From NCBI GenBank assembly GCA_013151045.1, contig JAADIY010000010.1, forward strand, positions 1 to 59,562: a stretch of 59,562 bases of DNA. Direction: 5' to 3'. The stretch's first letter is position 1. Every line of letters begins with the position of its first letter. Positions 16,946 to 56,986 of the stretch are shown piece by piece. The position numbers were made by a program, and so were the translations under genes. The DNA comes from Gammaproteobacteria bacterium (GTDB lineage: Bacteria; Pseudomonadota; Gammaproteobacteria; GCA-2400775). The notes below the pieces were generated by a model. The model was not told the origin of the DNA and did no database searches. It saw only the letters and a list, made by a program, of their open reading frames with translations.

Positions 16946-18325
16946 TTAGCTGGCGTAACGCCAGCGTGTCCCGTCTTTGGTATCTTCTAATTCGATATTG
17001 GCTGCAGTAAGTTCATTGCGTATCTCATCAGCACGCGCATAGTTTTTTGCTAGTTTGGCAGCATCACGTTCGGCTAGTAAATTATTAATGGTTGTTTCGT
17101 CTAAACCATTATCAGGGCTTGATCCTTTAAAATACACATCTGCATCACGTTGTAGCAAACCCAAAAGATAACCGCTGTTAATGATTTTTGCTTTGAGTTC
17201 GGTTTTTTCTTTTAAGTCAGTCGATTTGTTGAGTTGGCGCGCGCATTCATGGAGGGCGCTAATCGCTAACGGTGTGTTGAGATCATCTTCTAAAGCGTCT
17301 TGTACCTTTGCGTCGATAGCAGTGATATCGGCGGCCTCATGATCACAGCTACGCAGAGCTTGATAAATAGAGTCGAGTCGGTTGCGTGCCTGGACAATTA
17401 AATCTTCTGACCAATTTAGCGGAGAGCGATAATGTGTCGAAAGCAATGCTAGGCGCAGAACTTCACCGTCATGATCTTTTAGCAATGCGTGAACTTGGCG
17501 CACATTGCCGATCGATTTCGACATTTTTTCTTCGTCGATGGTGATGTAGCCATTATGTACCCAATAGCGGGCATATTGCTCGTTGTCCGCACAGCAGCTA
17601 CCTTGGGCTAATTCATTTTCATGATGCGGGAAGGTGAGGTCTTGTCCGCCACCATGAATGTCGATAGTGCCACCGAGATGTTTACGAATCATTGCTGAGC
17701 ATTCGATATGCCAACCAGGTCGGCCACGACCCCAAGGGCTATCCCAGCCAGGTACATTATCATCAGAGGGTTTCCACATGATAAAGTCGGCTGGATGTTT
17801 CTTATAGGGAGCGACTTCAACACGGGCCCCGGCAATCATATCGTCCAAGGAGCGTTTTGATAGTGCGCCATAGTTATCATTGGAAGGAATATGAAAGAGC
17901 ACATGGCCTTCAGCTTCATAGGCATGACCACGTTCAATCAAGGACTCAATCATGGAGATCATTTCGTCGATGTTGTCGGTCGCTAGAGGCTCTAAAGTGG
18001 GTTCTTCGTTATAGAGTGCTTTTAAGTCATCGTGATAAGCATCGCTAAAGCGTTTGGCAAGAACTGCTATGTCTTCACTATTCTCTTGTGCTGCGGCAAT
18101 AATTTTATCATCGATGTCGGTGATGTTGCGTGCATAAATTACGTTAGGGTAATGCTGTTTTAAAACGCGATTTAATACATCAAATACGACAGCGGGCCGA
18201 GCATTGCCAATGTGAATATAGTTATAAACCGTTGGGCCGCAGACGTACATGGTGACTCGACTAGGATTGAGAGGTTCAAAGACTTCTTTTTTTCCGTGTA
18301 GGGTGTTGTGCAGTTGTAATGACAT
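16946..18325 (-). CDS. cysS: Cysteinyl-tRNA synthetase
   Basis: 459 residues, the usual length. This class I synthetase charges tRNA-Cys. The HIGH motif is IHIGNARP, and KMSKSIGN is the KMSKS loop. The zinc site includes the Cys of YVCGPTVYN, the Cys of IECSAM, and the His and Glu of [10 protein letters not shown]. The end, GTRWRYAS, is typical. It lies 24 bp downstream of hisI on the same strand, so the two may be co-transcribed. Confidence 0.97.
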
Positions 18326-18349
18326 ATTTATGTAATTATTGGATTCGTG

Positions 18350-18808
18350 TTATTTATAAAGGGAATCGGGGTCGACCATGGGGGCATCATTGATCGCAAC
18401 CTTATTGTTATCGACGACGAGATAAAAGCAGTGACGTCGCGCTGTGTGGCAAGCGGGGCCTTGTTGGTCTACGCTTAGTAGCAATGTGTCACCATCACAG
18501 TCAATTTTCATCGATTTTAACGTTTGCCAGTTGCCAGACTTTTCGCCTTTGCGCCAATAGTCTTGACGTGAACGCGACCAGTAGCAGACTTGACCCGTTC
18601 TTAGGGTTTCTTCGATGGCAGCTTGATTCATCCAGGCCATCATTAAGACTTCGCCGCTATCATGCTGCTGAGCGATAGCCGGTATGAGGCCGTCACTATT
18701 GTATTTGAGGCTAGCTAAGCAGACGTTCAAGCTGATGCTATCGCCACATTGGGCGCGTTCTAACTGCTTGAAAGAAATTTTCTGCGTAGGCGCTGAGTTT
18801 TTGGTCAC
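18350..18808 (-). CDS. hisI: Phosphoribosyl-AMP cyclohydrolase
   Basis: 152 residues from a GTG at 18808, which has AAGGG six bases upstream; a longer frame to 18865 would add a hydrophobic leader not typical of HisI. It opens the adenine ring of PR-AMP, the third step of histidine synthesis. Signature: VLMMAWMNQAAIEETL, VCYWSRSRQDYW, CDGDTLLL (Mg site) and HTARRHCFY (zinc Cys). HisE is not fused. The gene is away from other his genes. Confidence 0.92.
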   Translation of the reverse strand: MTKNSAPTQKISFKQLERAQCGDSISLNVCLASLKYNSDGLIPAIAQQHDSGEVLMMAWMNQAAIEETLRTGQVCYWSRSRQDYWRKGEKSGNWQTLKSMKIDCDGDTLLLSVDQQGPACHTARRHCFYLVVDNNKVAINDAPMVDPDSLYK

Positions 18809-24406: not shown

Positions 24407-24898
24407 ATGAAACCAAAAGTCGCGATCATTATGGGATCGAAGAGTGATTGGCCTACTATGCAAGCTGCTGCTGAAGCGCTTGATCAATTGTCTGTGTCCT
24501 ATCACGTTGAAGTGGTGTCGGCGCATCGTACACCTGATCGTTTGATGGATTTTTCTGCTGGTGCGGTTGACGCGGGTTTTGAAATCATTATTGCCGGAGC
24601 CGGTGGCGCCGCGCATTTGCCGGGCATGGTTGCCTCTAAGACGCGTTTACCTGTGCTTGGTGTGCCTGTACAAAGCAAGGCGCTAAATGGTATGGATAGT
24701 CTTTTGTCGATTGTACAAATGCCTAAAGGGATTGCGGTAGGGACTTTAGCTATCGGCGTAAGCGGTGCTTACAATGCCGGTTTGTTAGCCTGTCAAATGT
24801 TGGCGAATAATGATGTTAATCTCGCTGGCCGTTTAGATGAATTTCGCGCCATACAAACAGATACTGTTTTAGAGCAACCGGATCCTCGAGACTGCTGA
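24407..24898 (+). CDS. purE: N5-carboxyaminoimidazole ribonucleotide mutase
   Basis: 163 residues, class I PurE. It moves the carboxylate of N5-CAIR to C4, a step of purine synthesis. Motifs: [25 protein letters not shown] and [13 protein letters not shown], then [18 protein letters not shown]. It forms a pair with purK, but a 295-bp inverted-repeat element now lies between the two. Start with a fair GTGGAG ribosome site. Confidence 0.96.
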
Positions 24899-24905
24899 TG
24901 TTGGA

Positions 24906-25200
24906 GCCTGTGTGCATAGTTCAGATCATAGTGTTACTCCCCAGATTCGGCCAGGCTAGGTGCGAGGATGGAATTTAGTGGTTCTCAATGAAAGACGAGC
25001 AACGATGATTGGCCAAATCTGGGGAGTAACTCGAAGGGAAGAGGCTATTTTCCCGCACGCCTACGTTGCACCCCAAGGGCACGTTGCACCCCAAGGGCAC
25101 GTTGTACCTCTCTTATGGATATTAAGTAGACGATGGTCGTTACGCCTTGGCGGTCGAAAAAATAGTCGTCTTCGCTGTGTTATGAACTATGCACACAGGC
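24906..25200. repeat. 295-bp inverted-repeat (MITE-like) element between purE and purK
   Basis: Perfect 18-bp terminal inverted repeats, GCCTGTGTGCATAGTTCA at 24906-24923 and its complement at 25183-25200, enclose a second 21-bp inverted pair with one mismatch (24933-24953 / 25010-25030) and 18-bp tandem repeats. No transposase is inside. The right arm contains the purK start codon. Outside, no target duplication is apparent. Confidence 0.7.
25063..25108. repeat. 18-bp tandem repeat, two and a half copies
   Basis: ACGTTGCACCCCAAGGGC at 25063-25080 and 25081-25098, then a partial ACGTTGTACC. It lies within the purE-purK inverted-repeat element. Confidence 0.85.
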
Positions 25201-26265
25201 CCTAAATTGTGGGTGTTGGGCAATGGCCAGCTCGGGGCCATGCTCAAGCACGCTGGCGAGTCTATCGATATTGAGGTGATTCCGCTTGCTATCGACAGTG
25301 ATGGTAAGCCACCGGTCTTAGATTCTGCTGATAGTGTTACGGCCGAGCGAGAGCATTGGCCGGCTAACCCTATTGCCGACCAGTTATTTCAACATGCAAA
25401 TTTTTCTAGTCGTCGAGCGTTTACTGAAATTGCTGATCGTTGCAATGAAAAAACTTTGTTTGACCGTTTAGGTCTAGCGAATACACCTTGGTGTTTGGTT
25501 AACGATCAAACTAGTGTTGGTGATTTGTATGAAAAGTTAGGTAATAAAATTGTATTGAAGCGTCGTTCTGGTGGTTATGACGGTAAAGGCCAGCAATGGC
25601 TGCGAGCAACGGACAACGACGATATTCCAGCAGACTGGCACGGTAATGCTATAGCCGAGCAAGCAATTGCGTTTGATGAAGAAGTATCGTTGATTGGTGC
25701 GCGCAATGCTTCGGGTCAATCTATTTTTTATCCTTTGACTCTTAATTTGCATCAAGACGGAATTTTGCTCGCTTCGTTGGCACCTCTTGATCGATTGCAG
25801 CCTTATCAAGACCAAGCAGAATTCATGCTGGCTAAGTTGATGGACGAGCTTGATTACATTGGTGTGTTGACCATGGAGTGTTTTCGTTTAGGTGATCAGC
25901 TGATGATCAACGAGGTGGCGCCACGGGTTCATAATAGTGGTCATTGGACAATGGATGGTGCTTCGCTAAGCCAATTCGATTTGCATGTACGTGCGGTGAT
26001 GGCTTTGCCTATTAGTCAGCCAGATATTATTGGTAAATCAGTCATGATCAATCTCTTGGGTTTAGAATGGAACCCGCTTTGGTCGACTGTGCCGTATGCT
26101 TCGGTTTATTGGTATGACAAAGAGGTGTTGCCGGGCAGAAAGTTGGGCCATATCAATTTGAATGTTCAAAGTCGTACTCAGCTTGATGATGCTTTGTCTG
26201 TGCTTAGCGGTTTGCTAAGTGACCGTTATCATCCTATATATGATTGGCTAAGAAGCAATTTTTAG
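25189..26265 (+). CDS. purK: N5-carboxyaminoimidazole ribonucleotide synthase
   Basis: 358 residues, ATP-grasp enzyme making N5-CAIR from AIR, bicarbonate and ATP, the substrate of PurE. Visible: LWVLGNGQLGAMLKHAGE at the amino end, KIVLKRRSGGYDGKGQQW (ATP-grasp), EVSLIGARN, MECFRLGDQLMINEVAPRVH and NSGHWTMDGAS. The start ATG (and codons MHTG) lie in the right arm of the inverted-repeat element, upstream of the conserved fold. No clear ribosome site is seen. Confidence 0.95.
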   Translation: MHTGPKLWVLGNGQLGAMLKHAGESIDIEVIPLAIDSDGKPPVLDSADSVTAEREHWPANPIADQLFQHANFSSRRAFTEIADRCNEKTLFDRLGLANTPWCLVNDQTSVGDLYEKLGNKIVLKRRSGGYDGKGQQWLRATDNDDIPADWHGNAIAEQAIAFDEEVSLIGARNASGQSIFYPLTLNLHQDGILLASLAPLDRLQPYQDQAEFMLAKLMDELDYIGVLTMECFRLGDQLMINEVAPRVHNSGHWTMDGASLSQFDLHVRAVMALPISQPDIIGKSVMINLLGLEWNPLWSTVPYASVYWYDKEVLPGRKLGHINLNVQSRTQLDDALSVLSGLLSDRYHPIYDWLRSNF

Positions 26266-51003: not shown

Positions 51004-52086
51004 ATGGCCGGCAATATTGATCTCGATCAAGTTCGCGAAAAAATTGATGCGCTTGATCGTCAGCTACTGACCTTAATAAGTGAACGAGCTGGTTTGGCAC
51101 AAGATGTTGCGCAGATAAAACAGACTGACAATGATGCCGTGTTTTATAAACCAGAACGCGAAGCAGAGGTGTTACGACGGGTTATCGATCGTAACCCTGG
51201 CCCATTAACTAACGAGAGTATTCGGTTTTTATTTCGCGAGATTATGTCGGCGTGTTTGGCATTAGAGCAGCCGATGAAAATTGCTTACCTTGGGCCTCAA
51301 GGTACCTTTACTCAGTTAGCAAGTCATAAGCAATTTGGTCACGCTGCGAAGACAATTGATTTCGCCTCTATCCCTGATATTTTTCGAGCTGTTTCGGCGA
51401 GTGATGTTAATTTTGGGGTGGTGCCAGTTGAAAACTCGACTGAAGGCATTGTTTCTCAAACATTAGATATGTTTGTTGGCAGCTCTCTGCAGATTTGTGG
51501 TGAGGTGGAGCTGCGTATTCATCATCATGTGATGTCGAAATCAAACTCGCTAGCTGATATAGACATTATCTACGCGCATCAGCAATCGTTTGCGCAATGT
51601 CGACAATGGCTGGAAAGTCATCTGCCTGGTATTAAGCAAGTAAGTGTGAATAGTAATGCTGAGGCCGCTCGCATGGCGGCGGAAAATAACAGCGCTGCGG
51701 CAATAGGTTCAGAAACGGCATCGGAAATATATGGCTTAACTGTGTTGGTGTCCAAGATTGAAGATACGCCTGATAATACAACACGGTTTTTAGTGTTAGG
51801 TCGAGATTCAGTAAAGCCCAGCGGTAAAGACAAAACTTCATTATTATTGTCGACGACGAATCAATCGGGTTCTTTGTTTGATTTGATACAGCCCTTTGCA
51901 TTAAACGGTGTATCGATGACACGAATCGAGTCGCGCCCGTCACGTCAGGTTAATTGGAATTATTTGTTCTTTGTTGATATCGAAGGCCATATTGAAGACG
52001 ACAATGTCGCTAAAGCGATCGCCGAAGTGAATGCTAAAGCGGCGACGACCAAAGTGCTCGGTTCTTACCCCGCAGCGCTGTCCTAA
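51004..52086 (+). CDS. pheA: Bifunctional chorismate mutase/prephenate dehydratase
   Basis: 360 residues. AroQ chorismate mutase at ~1-90 (VREKIDALDRQLLTLISERA); prephenate dehydratase ~93-270 (IAYLGPQGTFTQLA, VPVENSTEGIVSQTLD, NTTRFLVLG); ACT regulatory domain ~280-360 (SGSLFDLIQPFALNGVSMTR, with ESRPS for Phe binding). Makes phenylpyruvate. hisC, which often follows, is missing; a short inverted-repeat element lies there instead. Confidence 0.97.
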   Translation: MAGNIDLDQVREKIDALDRQLLTLISERAGLAQDVAQIKQTDNDAVFYKPEREAEVLRRVIDRNPGPLTNESIRFLFREIMSACLALEQPMKIAYLGPQGTFTQLASHKQFGHAAKTIDFASIPDIFRAVSASDVNFGVVPVENSTEGIVSQTLDMFVGSSLQICGEVELRIHHHVMSKSNSLADIDIIYAHQQSFAQCRQWLESHLPGIKQVSVNSNAEAARMAAENNSAAAIGSETASEIYGLTVLVSKIEDTPDNTTRFLVLGRDSVKPSGKDKTSLLLSTTNQSGSLFDLIQPFALNGVSMTRIESRPSRQVNWNYLFFVDIEGHIEDDNVAKAIAEVNAKAATTKVLGSYPAALS

Positions 52087-52110
52087 GCCTTGCTATCTAT
52101 GTCTATTCGC

Positions 52111-52242
52111 GGGCCTGTTGACGTTTTATTTTCATCGCTGCTGGAGGCGCTTTTTTGCTCGACAAGGCGCAAGGAGCGTAATGTAGTGGTGCTACATAAG
52201 CGAGTTGTAACACAGTGACGAAAATAAAACGTCAACAGACCC
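52111..52242. mobile_element. 132-bp MITE-like element overlapping the tyrA start
   Basis: Thirty-base terminal inverted repeats (27 of 30 match): 52111-52140 begins GGGCCTGTTGACGTTTTATT, and 52213-52242 is its near-complement. The centre contains a smaller GTAG-TGGTG-CTAC hairpin. No coding capacity. The right arm includes GTG at 52215 and the first codons of tyrA. Confidence 0.75.
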
Positions 52243-53093
52243 TAACTAACCGTGTCACCATCCTTGGGCTTGGCTTAATTGGTGGTTCTTGGGCTTTAGC
52301 GTTAAAACGTGCCGGTGCTGTATCAGAGATTGTTGCTTGGGGCAGAGACCAACAGCGTTTAGACAAAGCCGTTGAAATGGGTGTGGTTGACAGCGCGACT
52401 ACTGATATGGCTGCCGCTGTGGCGGAGTCTGATGTCATCGTTATTGCGACACCTTTGGGAACAATGTCTGATGTGTTTAACCAGCTTGTTCCCTTGGTAT
52501 CTAAAAATGTAGTAATTACGGATGTCGGTAGCGCAAAAGCTCGTTTGGTTGAGTTGGCACGAGAGACTTTAGGTGAAAGCTTTCCGCGTTTTGTGCCAGG
52601 CCACCCGGTAGCGGGTGCTGAGCGTAGTGGCTTTGAAGCCTCTAAAGCTGATTTGTATGAAAATCGTCGTGTCGTGCTAACGCCAGTTAGTGATACAAAT
52701 GCTGGTGCATTAAGTTTGGTTGAGCAGTTGTGGTCATGTTGTGGCGCGGAGTTAGTGACAATGGAGCCGCAGACACATGACGATGTGTTGGCATTGACCA
52801 GTCATCTCCCACATGCAATAGCCTATTTATTGGTGGACTTGCTTGTGCAGCAAGGCGGCGAGGATTCGCGTAAGTTTGCAGCAGGTGGTTTTTACGATAT
52901 CACGCGTATTGCTTCGAGTAGTCCCGAGATGTGGCGTGATATTTTTAACGATAATAAAGACAGTGTGGTTGCTTTGCTTGACCACTATATTGATGGGCTT
53001 GAGAAGTTTAAGCTGGCCATTGCTGAAGATGATAATGATAGTTTGATGAAGGTGATGCAGCGTGCTAAGTCAACGCGAGATAGTTTGGTTTAG
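52215..53093 (+). CDS. tyrA: Prephenate dehydrogenase
   Basis: 292 residues. NAD(P)-dependent prephenate dehydrogenase of tyrosine synthesis. Rossmann motif VTILGLGLIGGSWALALK, DVGSAKARL, FVPGHPVAGAERSGFEAS, and LTSHLPHAIAYLLVDLL. The start GTG and the peptide TKIKRQQT come from the right arm of the MITE-like element; conserved sequence begins directly after. No Shine-Dalgarno is evident. Not fused to aroA, unlike in Pseudomonas. Confidence 0.93.
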   Translation: MTKIKRQQTLTNRVTILGLGLIGGSWALALKRAGAVSEIVAWGRDQQRLDKAVEMGVVDSATTDMAAAVAESDVIVIATPLGTMSDVFNQLVPLVSKNVVITDVGSAKARLVELARETLGESFPRFVPGHPVAGAERSGFEASKADLYENRRVVLTPVSDTNAGALSLVEQLWSCCGAELVTMEPQTHDDVLALTSHLPHAIAYLLVDLLVQQGGEDSRKFAAGGFYDITRIASSSPEMWRDIFNDNKDSVVALLDHYIDGLEKFKLAIAEDDNDSLMKVMQRAKSTRDSLV

Positions 53094-55146: not shown

Positions 55147-55315
55147 TAACGACGTTAATCGATTTTGTGAGCGTGTTGTTTAAGACGCTTTTAGCAGATG
55201 GATGCTTTAAGTTGTAGTCAGATTGGGTCTGACACGCAGCACACTTTTGTGCAAGAGAAGAACCTGAGCCATCGGGGCTTCTTTAACTAACTAAAAGATG
55301 GATAAAGTAAAGATT
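55147..55315 (+). promoter_or_regulatory. rpsA upstream/leader region
   Basis: 169 bp between cmk and rpsA. It likely holds an rpsA promoter and a leader that could fold (GAAGAACC...GGGGCTTC at 55257-55282). No strong Shine-Dalgarno precedes the start, as is known for E. coli rpsA, which uses leader structure and S1 autoregulation. Confidence 0.45.
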
Positions 55316-56986
55316 ATGAGTGAAAGTTTCGCCGAATTATTTGAAGAGAGCCAAGTAGAAGCATTGATGCGACCGGGTGCTATTGTTAATGGTACCGTGA
55401 TAAAAATTGATGGTGACGCAGTCATTGTTAGTGCGGGCTTAAAGTCTGAAAGTGTTATTCCTATTGAGCAGTTTTATAACGAAAACCGCGAAATAGAAGT
55501 TAGCGTCGGCGATATTGTAGAAGTTGCCATGGAAACCGTAGAAGACGGTTTTGGCGCAACGCGTTTATCACGCGAAAAAGCTAAGCGTGCACAGATCTGG
55601 CGTAAGCTTGATGTGGCGATGGAGAAAGGCGAAATTATTACCGGTCGTATTGACGGTAAAGTTAAAGGTGGTTTCACTGTTGACCTTAATGGTTTGCGCG
55701 CCTTCTTGCCGGGTTCATTGGTTGATGTGCGTCCTGTACGCGATACCGGTTACCTTGAAGGTAAAGAGCTTGAATTTAAGATTGTTAAGCTAGACCAAAA
55801 ACGCAGCAACGTTGTGGTATCACGTCGCGCGGTGGTTGAAGATGAGAACAGTGTTGAGCGCCAAGAATTGCTCGATAACTTGCAAGAAGGACAAGTCGTT
55901 AAAGGTATTGTTAAAAACCTTACTGATTACGGTGCGTTCCTTGATATGGGTGGCATTGATGGTCTACTTCATATTACTGACATGGCGTGGAAGCGTGTTA
56001 AACAGCCTTCTGAAATCGTCAACGTTGGTGATGAGATTGAAGTTAAGATATTGAAGTTTGATCGTGAGCGCAAACGTGTTTCGCTTGGTCTTAAACAGTT
56101 GGGCGATGATCCATGGAAAGATTTGGCACGTCGTTATCCTGTTAACACACGTTTATTCGGTAAAGTTACCAATATTGCTGATTATGGTTGCTTCGCTGAA
56201 ATTGAAGATGGTGTTGAAGGTTTGATCCATATGTCTGAAATGGATTGGACAAATAAGAATGTGCATCCATCTAAAGTTGTTCATATTGGCCAAGAAATTG
56301 AAGTTATGGTGCTGGATATTGATGAAGAGCGTCGTCGTATTTCATTAGGTATGAAGCAATGTCAGACCAACCCATGGGCTGATTTTGCCGCACGCCATAA
56401 GAAGGGTGACCGTGTTCACGGTACTATTAAGTCTATTACCGACTTTGGTATCTTTGTTGGTCTTGAAGGCGCAATTGACGGTTTACTACATTTATCTGAT
56501 TTGTCTTGGCAGGCTGAAGGCGAAGAAGTTGATCATGACTTCAAGAAAGGCGATGAAGTTGATGCAGTTATTTTGGCCATCGATGCTGAGCGTGAGCGTA
56601 TTTCTTTGGGTGTTAAGCAGTTGGAAACCGATCCGTTTTCACAATTCTTGGCTGATCATGCTAAAGGCAGCGTAGTGACTGGAACCGTTATCTCTGTAGA
56701 ACAAAGAGGTGCTGTCATTGATTTGGGCGATGGTATTGAAGGGTATCTTGGTGTTGGTGAGTTAGCACGAGAACGAACAGATGATGCTCGTACTATATTA
56801 AAAGAAGGCGAGAGTGTCGAAGCTAAATTTACAGCAGTTGATCGCAAATCTCGCAATATCGTACTTTCAATTAAAGCCAAAGATAGACAAGAAGAAGCAA
56901 AAGCTGTCCAAGACTATAATGTTAAGGCTTCGGATGCAGGTGCGACGACTCTTGGTGATCTATTTAAAGAGCAGATGGGGAAATAG
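55316..56986 (+). CDS. rpsA: 30S ribosomal protein S1
   Basis: 556 residues from ATG 55316 ([12 protein letters not shown] aligns with the usual S1 start; the ATG at 55298 adds six atypical residues). Six S1 RNA-binding repeats are visible, including [40 protein letters not shown], and [20 protein letters not shown]. It brings mRNA to the 30S subunit. cmk-rpsA-ihfB is a conserved order. Confidence 0.97.

Follow-up and report, generated by a model that had tools for sequence, protein, structure and literature searches.

The tyrA gene (prephenate dehydrogenase) lies in the gene order gyrA-serC-serA-pheA-tyrA-aroA-cmk-rpsA. The window, that is the whole stretch of 59,562 nucleotides that was analysed, is contig C28 of a gammaproteobacterial genome (G000; 1.95 Mb, 62 contigs, about 95% complete). 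The spacer between pheA and tyrA harbors the top entry in the window's list of inverted repeats, and its description in the original prediction as 132 bp with ends matching at 27 of 30 positions is confirmed, the two arms enclosing a 72-nt centre (Table 1). Folded as a single DNA strand, this region has a z score of -6.2, and none of 200 shuffled sequences is equally stable. Within the element, a hairpin unit has a conserved loop that includes an inner hairpin (ATGTAG-TGGTG-CTACAT); the unit has apparently lost its right inner arm.

Table 1. Features of the tyrA and purK sites, in window positions.
Feature	Position	Strand	Remark
Two-unit purK element in the purE-purK interval	24904..25202		inverted repeat 24901-25205, same family as tyrA element
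A-type hairpin unit of purK element	24939..25022	+	E 1.2e-13
Ancestral purK ATG	24898..24900	+	overlaps purE stop (TGATG); leader frame closed by a stop after 26 codons
purK, present start ATG in right arm	25189..26265	+	MHTGPKLWVLG; MSKLWVLG in G001 and G002
pheA (chorismate mutase/prephenate dehydratase), upstream of tyrA	51004..52086	+	
Ancestral tyrA ATG (52099-52101) and 39-aa leader frame	52099..52218	+	ends at TGA 52216-52218, overlapping the new GTG
tyrA element, one-unit shortened copy	52111..52242		flanks: left CGC (TA duplicate decayed), right TAAC
Left terminal arm of tyrA element, tip GGGCCTGTTGACG	52111..52140	+	inverted-repeat search
Hairpin unit in tyrA element	52147..52230	+	scores 67.2 bits with covariance model R1 (E 1.1e-13)
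Right terminal arm of tyrA element, with GTG and first tyrA codons	52213..52242	+	
tyrA (prephenate dehydrogenase), present start GTG	52215..53093	+	

The tyrA frame is open from the GTG at 52215, which is the only in-frame start ahead of the NAD-binding motif. Upstream, in-frame TAA stops occur at 52179 and 52197; downstream, no in-frame ATG, GTG or TTG is found in the next ~120 nt, including the GLGLIGGS motif (residue 18). Because of these upstream stops and because there is no other start codon through GLGLIGGS, the start is, on the reading frame, forced to this GTG, and the residues MTKIKRQQ would come from the right arm, unless a non-canonical start is used.

The tyrA site in sister species

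Four congeners (G001, G002, G003 and G004) were compared with G000. The tyrA site is empty in G003 (...CTT ATG ACA ATT CTC GCT AAT CGT) and in G002 (...TTT ATG GCA ATT TTA GCT AAC CGC); it is filled in G001 and G004, as in G000. With slashes marking the borders of the element, the window reads ATG TCT ATT CGC/GGGCCTGTTGACG ... CAGTGACGAAAATAAAACGTCAACAGACCC/TAACTAAC and G001 reads ATG GCT ATT CGA/GAGTCTGTTGACG ... CAGTGATGAAAATGAAACGTCAACAGACC/TTGGCTAAT. In G004, the contig begins within the element and the right arm is followed by TAGCTAAC. Since these junctions can be compared with the empty sites of G002 and G003, the insertion is placed in codon 4 of tyrA, which, relative to the sister species and as judged from the aligned junctions, is shown to be split by the element at a YTAR site. 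Of its TA duplication, the left copy has decayed (CGC), and the duplication is deduced from the siblings. Compared with the window, G001 has the inner part of its element inverted, and an additional A-type unit is present in G004; judging from their organization, the copies of G000 and G001 look like deleted derivatives. The insertions in the three species probably descend from a single event. The MITE-like insertion proposed in the original prediction is borne out by the empty sites in G002 and G003 and by further copies of the element; the alternative outcome, a sole copy in a deeply conserved spacer, fails on both counts, with other copies found and the site empty in two congeners.

The insertion had also been linked to the loss of hisC, said to lie between pheA and tyrA in many gammaproteobacteria. 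Outside the genus, 25 loci were sampled and the latter part is correct for 14 of them; of the remaining 11, a DAHP synthase gene takes this place in one (G025), three have nothing, and seven could not be judged, with pheA off the fetched piece. The pheA-tyrA spacer is without a gene in G000, G001, G002 and G003, whether the element is present or not. Because the empty-site species G002 and G003 are without hisC there too, its absence from the spacer is independent of the insertion, and loss of hisC through the insertion is rejected. Matches to hisC over the cut-off occur elsewhere in G000, G001, G003 and G004; there is none over the cut-off in G002 (80% complete).

Other genes starting within element arms

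Comparison of gene starts shows four genes besides tyrA that have taken their start from an arm: purK and murB in G000, ubiA and a TPR lipoprotein gene in G004. In each case, the insertion is within the first few codons and is not present in sisters. The sister purK genes begin at the ancestral ATG, with ATG AGT AAG TTG TGG in G001 and G002 and ATG CGT AGG TTG TGG in G004; the window has ATG TTG/GAGCC...ATG CAC ACA GGC CC/T AAA TTG TGG. The second unit of the purK element (about 25040-25170) is inverted and degraded, with a tandem mini-hairpin at 25070-25102. At murB, G002, G003 and G004 keep the ancestral ATG (ATG ATG GC. AT. TTA GAT), and G000 (contig C61) has ATGATGGCCATGT-TA/GGG ... ATGAAAATGAAGCACGAACAGATCT/TA-AAACAC, the right end of the element being ...ATCT. 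The TA duplication of this murB insertion, within YTAR, is clean, whereas those of tyrA and purK are decayed. ubiA and the lipoprotein gene of G004 start within arms, with the insertion absent at each in all four congeners checked; in the lipoprotein, MKRQQ from the arm forms, by eye, the basic start of the signal peptide. The claim that both tyrA and purK start inside inverted-repeat arms therefore stands, murB being a third case in G000, and the idea that insertions are tolerated in such genes is well supported. In G000, a DctQ-like gene and a solute-binding-protein gene are further candidates for a start within an arm.

The murB junction of G001 (ATGATGAAAATGACGCATAAGCAGACTC/TTAATCAC) has, from its sequence, the look of a leftover arm of a since-deleted element. 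There (locus L293, about 1498-1530), the N-terminus MMKMTHKQTLNH looks transposon-derived, the transposon itself being gone. At two loci of G000, L074 (contig C54, about 55300-55492) and L085 (C22, about 18315-18525), the left arm contains the end of an upstream open frame, so the elements may also provide stop codons and C-terminal residues to such frames.

Leader frames and initiation at the new starts

At five of seven start junctions, the leader frame that begins at the old ATG ends at, or no more than 8 nt from, the new start. These are tyrA in G000 and in G001, murB, ubiA and the lipoprotein gene; the seven are not all independent, because the tyrA copies of three species probably share one insertion. 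The G001 tyrA leader has 33 codons from the old ATG and ends at TGATG. The two exceptions are purK, where 213 nt separate the leader stop from the start downstream, and the G004 tyrA, which has an in-frame stop and whose upstream part is off the contig. A stop separates the old and new frames in the six junctions with a readable old ATG, and in-frame fusion as the mechanism of rescue was not seen wherever the frame could be read. By eye, the relevant frame is open anyway in about half of the A-first elements, in a listing of copies whose tips are not strongly changed, a set that excludes the murB copy.

This geometry suggests coupled reinitiation. At tyrA of the window, ribosomes would still initiate at the old ATG, translate the 39-codon leader across the element as far as the TGA and then begin again at the GTG that overlaps it. 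The resulting TyrA would start with MTKIKRQQT, its first few ancestral residues being replaced. We give this route about even odds. A somewhat less probable account, which we nevertheless take seriously, keeps the start donated by the arm and lets ribosomes load directly at its ATG or GTG, with no coupling and with the leader frames being incidental. Indeed, tyrA of G004 and purK have no uninterrupted leader, and the former has an SD-like AAGGTG 8 nt upstream of its ATG. However, leaders have been kept at five junctions although the tyrA copies were rearranged differently, and the G000 tyrA start is, by eye, without an evident SD sequence.

A family of elements built from hairpin units

Further genomic copies, as expected by the original prediction, were found. 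A DNA search of G000 gave six further places, each within a composite element in which the outer arms enclose one or two hairpins. Full copies are mostly about 265-285 bp long. They have GGGYCTGTT tips, contain a pair of hairpin units in inverted orientation and lie at a YTAR target whose TA is duplicated. The loops of the units are conserved; their stems differ, yet remain complementary. A covariance model (R1) built from an alignment of 27 units (A1) gives 27 unit matches in G000, which we grouped into 17 elements. R1 matches occur in 59 of 274 gammaproteobacterial genomes (E<=1e-3) and in 79 of 299 genomes of the phylum (E<=1e-4), many of them from another class; the units counted per genome in both surveys are lower bounds (at least 15-16 at the maximum). 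Among the matches listed in a pattern scan are Azotobacter, Stutzerimonas, Pseudomonas, Halomonas, Chromohalobacter, Rheinheimera, Thiodiazotropha, gamma proteobacterium HTCC5015 and others. The 80 stretches listed, out of 119, were searched with the model together with 60 chosen loci, duplicates being avoided, and these 140 loci yielded 248 unit matches, 239 of them distinct.

With the patterns used, 78 of the 239 units could not be typed as A or B. Close pairs of units are in opposite orientation in 94 of 95 cases, the spacing is 23 nt in 63 of the 95, and all 48 pairs with both members typed combine A with B. In each of G213 and G126, ten regions were fetched, and all ten share one element. 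A 151-bp query had no match in the phage and plasmid collections; fuller copies gave a few plasmid matches, with no annotated feature beneath them.

Two variants of the units were observed. Eleven of the 239 units, all from the window's genus, have the mini-hairpin ACGTGCCCTYGGGGT or a near form of it inserted at a small number of fixed positions (window 25070-25102; L042, L047, L048, L053, L054, L064, L066, L067 and L092); tandemly duplicated in the purK element, it is possibly an insert within an insert. In L225, L215, L171 and L249 (Pseudomonas, Azotobacter), the loop of one unit is, by eye, largely self-complementary (CGGGAC...GTCCCG), a different inner fold at the same place.

Conservation of pairing in the stems

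In alignment A1, 17 of the 21 predicted pairs show two-sided changes, including 14 of 14 in the outer stem. Over all 21 pairs, 89.8% of the cells are paired, against 63.4% after shuffling and 37-46% with slid partners. The inner 6-bp stem covaries as well, with 98.8% paired. Of the 239 units, 225 have full arms and entered a further test, where 72 were arm-distinct (arms differing at more than 6 of 28 positions). These 72 reach 81.8% Watson-Crick pairs, against a mean of 39.2% when arms are re-paired (maximum 45.4% in 2000), the units having been found with a model that was built from 27 of them, favours paired sequences and tolerates G-U. Twenty random choices of representatives give 79.5-81.2%. 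It is thus shown statistically that the inner hairpin units of the family remain paired as the sequences of their stems change. On the units' own strand, stem mismatches are G-T rather than A-C by about 96 to 22, with about 103 others; this excess is a hint that selection acts on a single strand in its folded form, bearing in mind the bias of the model toward G-U.

Template switching is known to act on hairpins of this size. Correction of quasi-palindromes at the DNA level, one arm templating the other, could produce the covariation with no selection on a folded molecule, and we regard it as a credible but distinctly less favored account. It would fit the fact that the arms within individual copies, even old ones, are still matched. 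Against it, the inner 6-bp stem covaries too and the loops are conserved; moreover, a strand-symmetric process predicts as many G-T as A-C mismatches, which is not what is seen, even if part of the imbalance may be ascertainment.

Movement and relation to the IS5 family

Nearly all copies in G213 and G126 end as (C/T)TA/GGGCCTGTT...AACAGGCCC/TA(G/A), two G126 copies being cut or changed at one end. Tips are recognisable at both ends of 71 of 84 paired elements, at one end of 4 and at neither end of 9; the background is 40 matches in 4000 draws, where draws near an element were skipped and kept in the denominator. The elements have no transposase gene, for which they are too short, and they have terminal inverted repeats, several genomic copies, a target duplication and empty sites, that is, the features of a MITE.

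G126 contains an 812-bp, two-frame insertion sequence (IS) of the IS5 family, with CTAG/CTAA flanks and 20-nt ends that begin with GGGCGTGTTAACAC (ends GGGCGTGTTAACACTAAT). The element ends (GGGCCTGTTAACACTA) are shared with those of this IS (GGGCGTGTTAACACTA). The two halves of its transposase score 103.9 and 101.1 bits with NF033580, for which the cut-off of 110 applies to an unsplit protein; PF13340 and PF01609 are over their cut-offs. Its putative subgroup is IS427. The original prediction called for a transposase with the same ends: it is found as the IS of the relative G126, and not in G000, where no intact transposase with GGGYCTGTT tips was found and the one PF01609 match is broken, below the cut-off and with no tip motif nearby. 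Among 32 PF01609 matches, minus two without a locus (both G126), tips lie near matches only in G126 and near none in G000, G001, G213, G025 and G172; G004 and G019 have no PF01609 match at all. In G126, three element copies and one IS5-type IS copy share the flank AAGACAAACGATAACAAAGCC (L136, L138, L139 and L165), which suggests another repeat, either a common target of both or part of a composite.

Origin of the tyrA feature

The tyrA feature is best explained as a decayed non-autonomous, TA-duplicating element that interrupted codon 4 and donated a start from its arm, with presumed mobilisation in trans by an IS5-family transposase and possible translational coupling; we estimate the probability of this whole explanation at roughly 0.8. 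An IS5-family transposase would move the element in trans via its GGGYCTGTT tips. The survival of the insertion in a housekeeping gene, one that seems to belong to an operon, would be due to a start in the arm that faces outward and is in the right frame.

A conserved cis-regulatory RNA upstream of tyrA, such as an attenuator or a riboswitch, is very improbable. A stable structure and a leader peptide before an aromatic amino-acid gene would agree with it, but the element is absent from two congeners, the same family precedes unrelated genes, the inner part is inverted between G001 and G000, the leader is without tyrosine, and no Rfam family matches the window at its gathering score (at E<=1, four loci gave only an implausible lncRNA match, outside the element). 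A chance inverted repeat in an ordinary spacer, with next to no probability left, is refuted by the filled and empty sites, along with the fold stability and the other copies.

Relation to known elements

REP and REPIN elements, associated with RAYT proteins, are intergenic hairpins, with two hairpins in inverted orientation. The present element is likewise intergenic with two inverted hairpins, and differs from them by its TA duplication, IS5-like tips, length of about 270 bp, and variable stems with conserved loops.

MITEPsy1 of Pseudomonas syringae is 100 nt long, with GGAAGGTCTGAAAAAGCC as its ends and a duplication reported to be 4 nt (PMC3189936). Like the present element, it is short, has terminal repeats and no transposase, inserts at CTAG or YTAA, and has a suggested IS5-type relationship (PMC3189936). 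Unlike it as described there, the present element has GGGYCTGTT tips, an apparent TA duplication and two covarying hairpin units inside. Rickettsia palindromic elements are described as palindromic repeats of about 150 bp that alter housekeeping proteins through in-frame fusions within coding sequences (PMC10969869). The present element is also palindromic and alters proteins of housekeeping genes; in contrast to that description, it sits in the first codons, donates a new start and has a stop between the old and new frames, and none of the six readable junctions has an in-frame peptide inside the host protein. The QMITEs of Coxiella are likewise gammaproteobacterial MITEs, with structured transcripts (PMC5896051). 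They are set apart by description, QMITE2 having a duplication of 7-9 bp in a figure legend (PMC10969869) vs. TA here. Within the parts of the literature reached by topic and by tip strings, no description of the present family was found, which is a statement about these sources and not about all that is in print.

Conclusions

We describe a MITE-type element that has a novel internal organization and was found in place at the start of a gene; coupling is plausible for it, if unproved. Most surprising are the repeated donation of starts in one genus and the pair-preserving units across a phylum. It is tempting, although doubtful at present, to see here a widespread and seemingly undescribed group of structured mobile elements of Pseudomonadota, with inverted A and B units whose loops are conserved and whose pair-preserving stems change freely, selected as folded single strands. 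Such an element would be symmetric towards its host, since inverted units present a plus-sense unit first from either side, be it in a transcript or in a DNA strand. In one genus or more, its arms would double as portable translation starts, so that the element could become established within the opening codons of essential genes.

The tyrA case offers the states before and after insertion in sister species, with mobile DNA replacing the start codons of essential genes and rewriting N-termini. It is also a possible case of termination-reinitiation rescuing a gene in an operon, and the hairpin units provide a test of whether a MITE is selected for its folded shape. Finally, gene calling and the annotation of N-termini in these genomes are directly affected.
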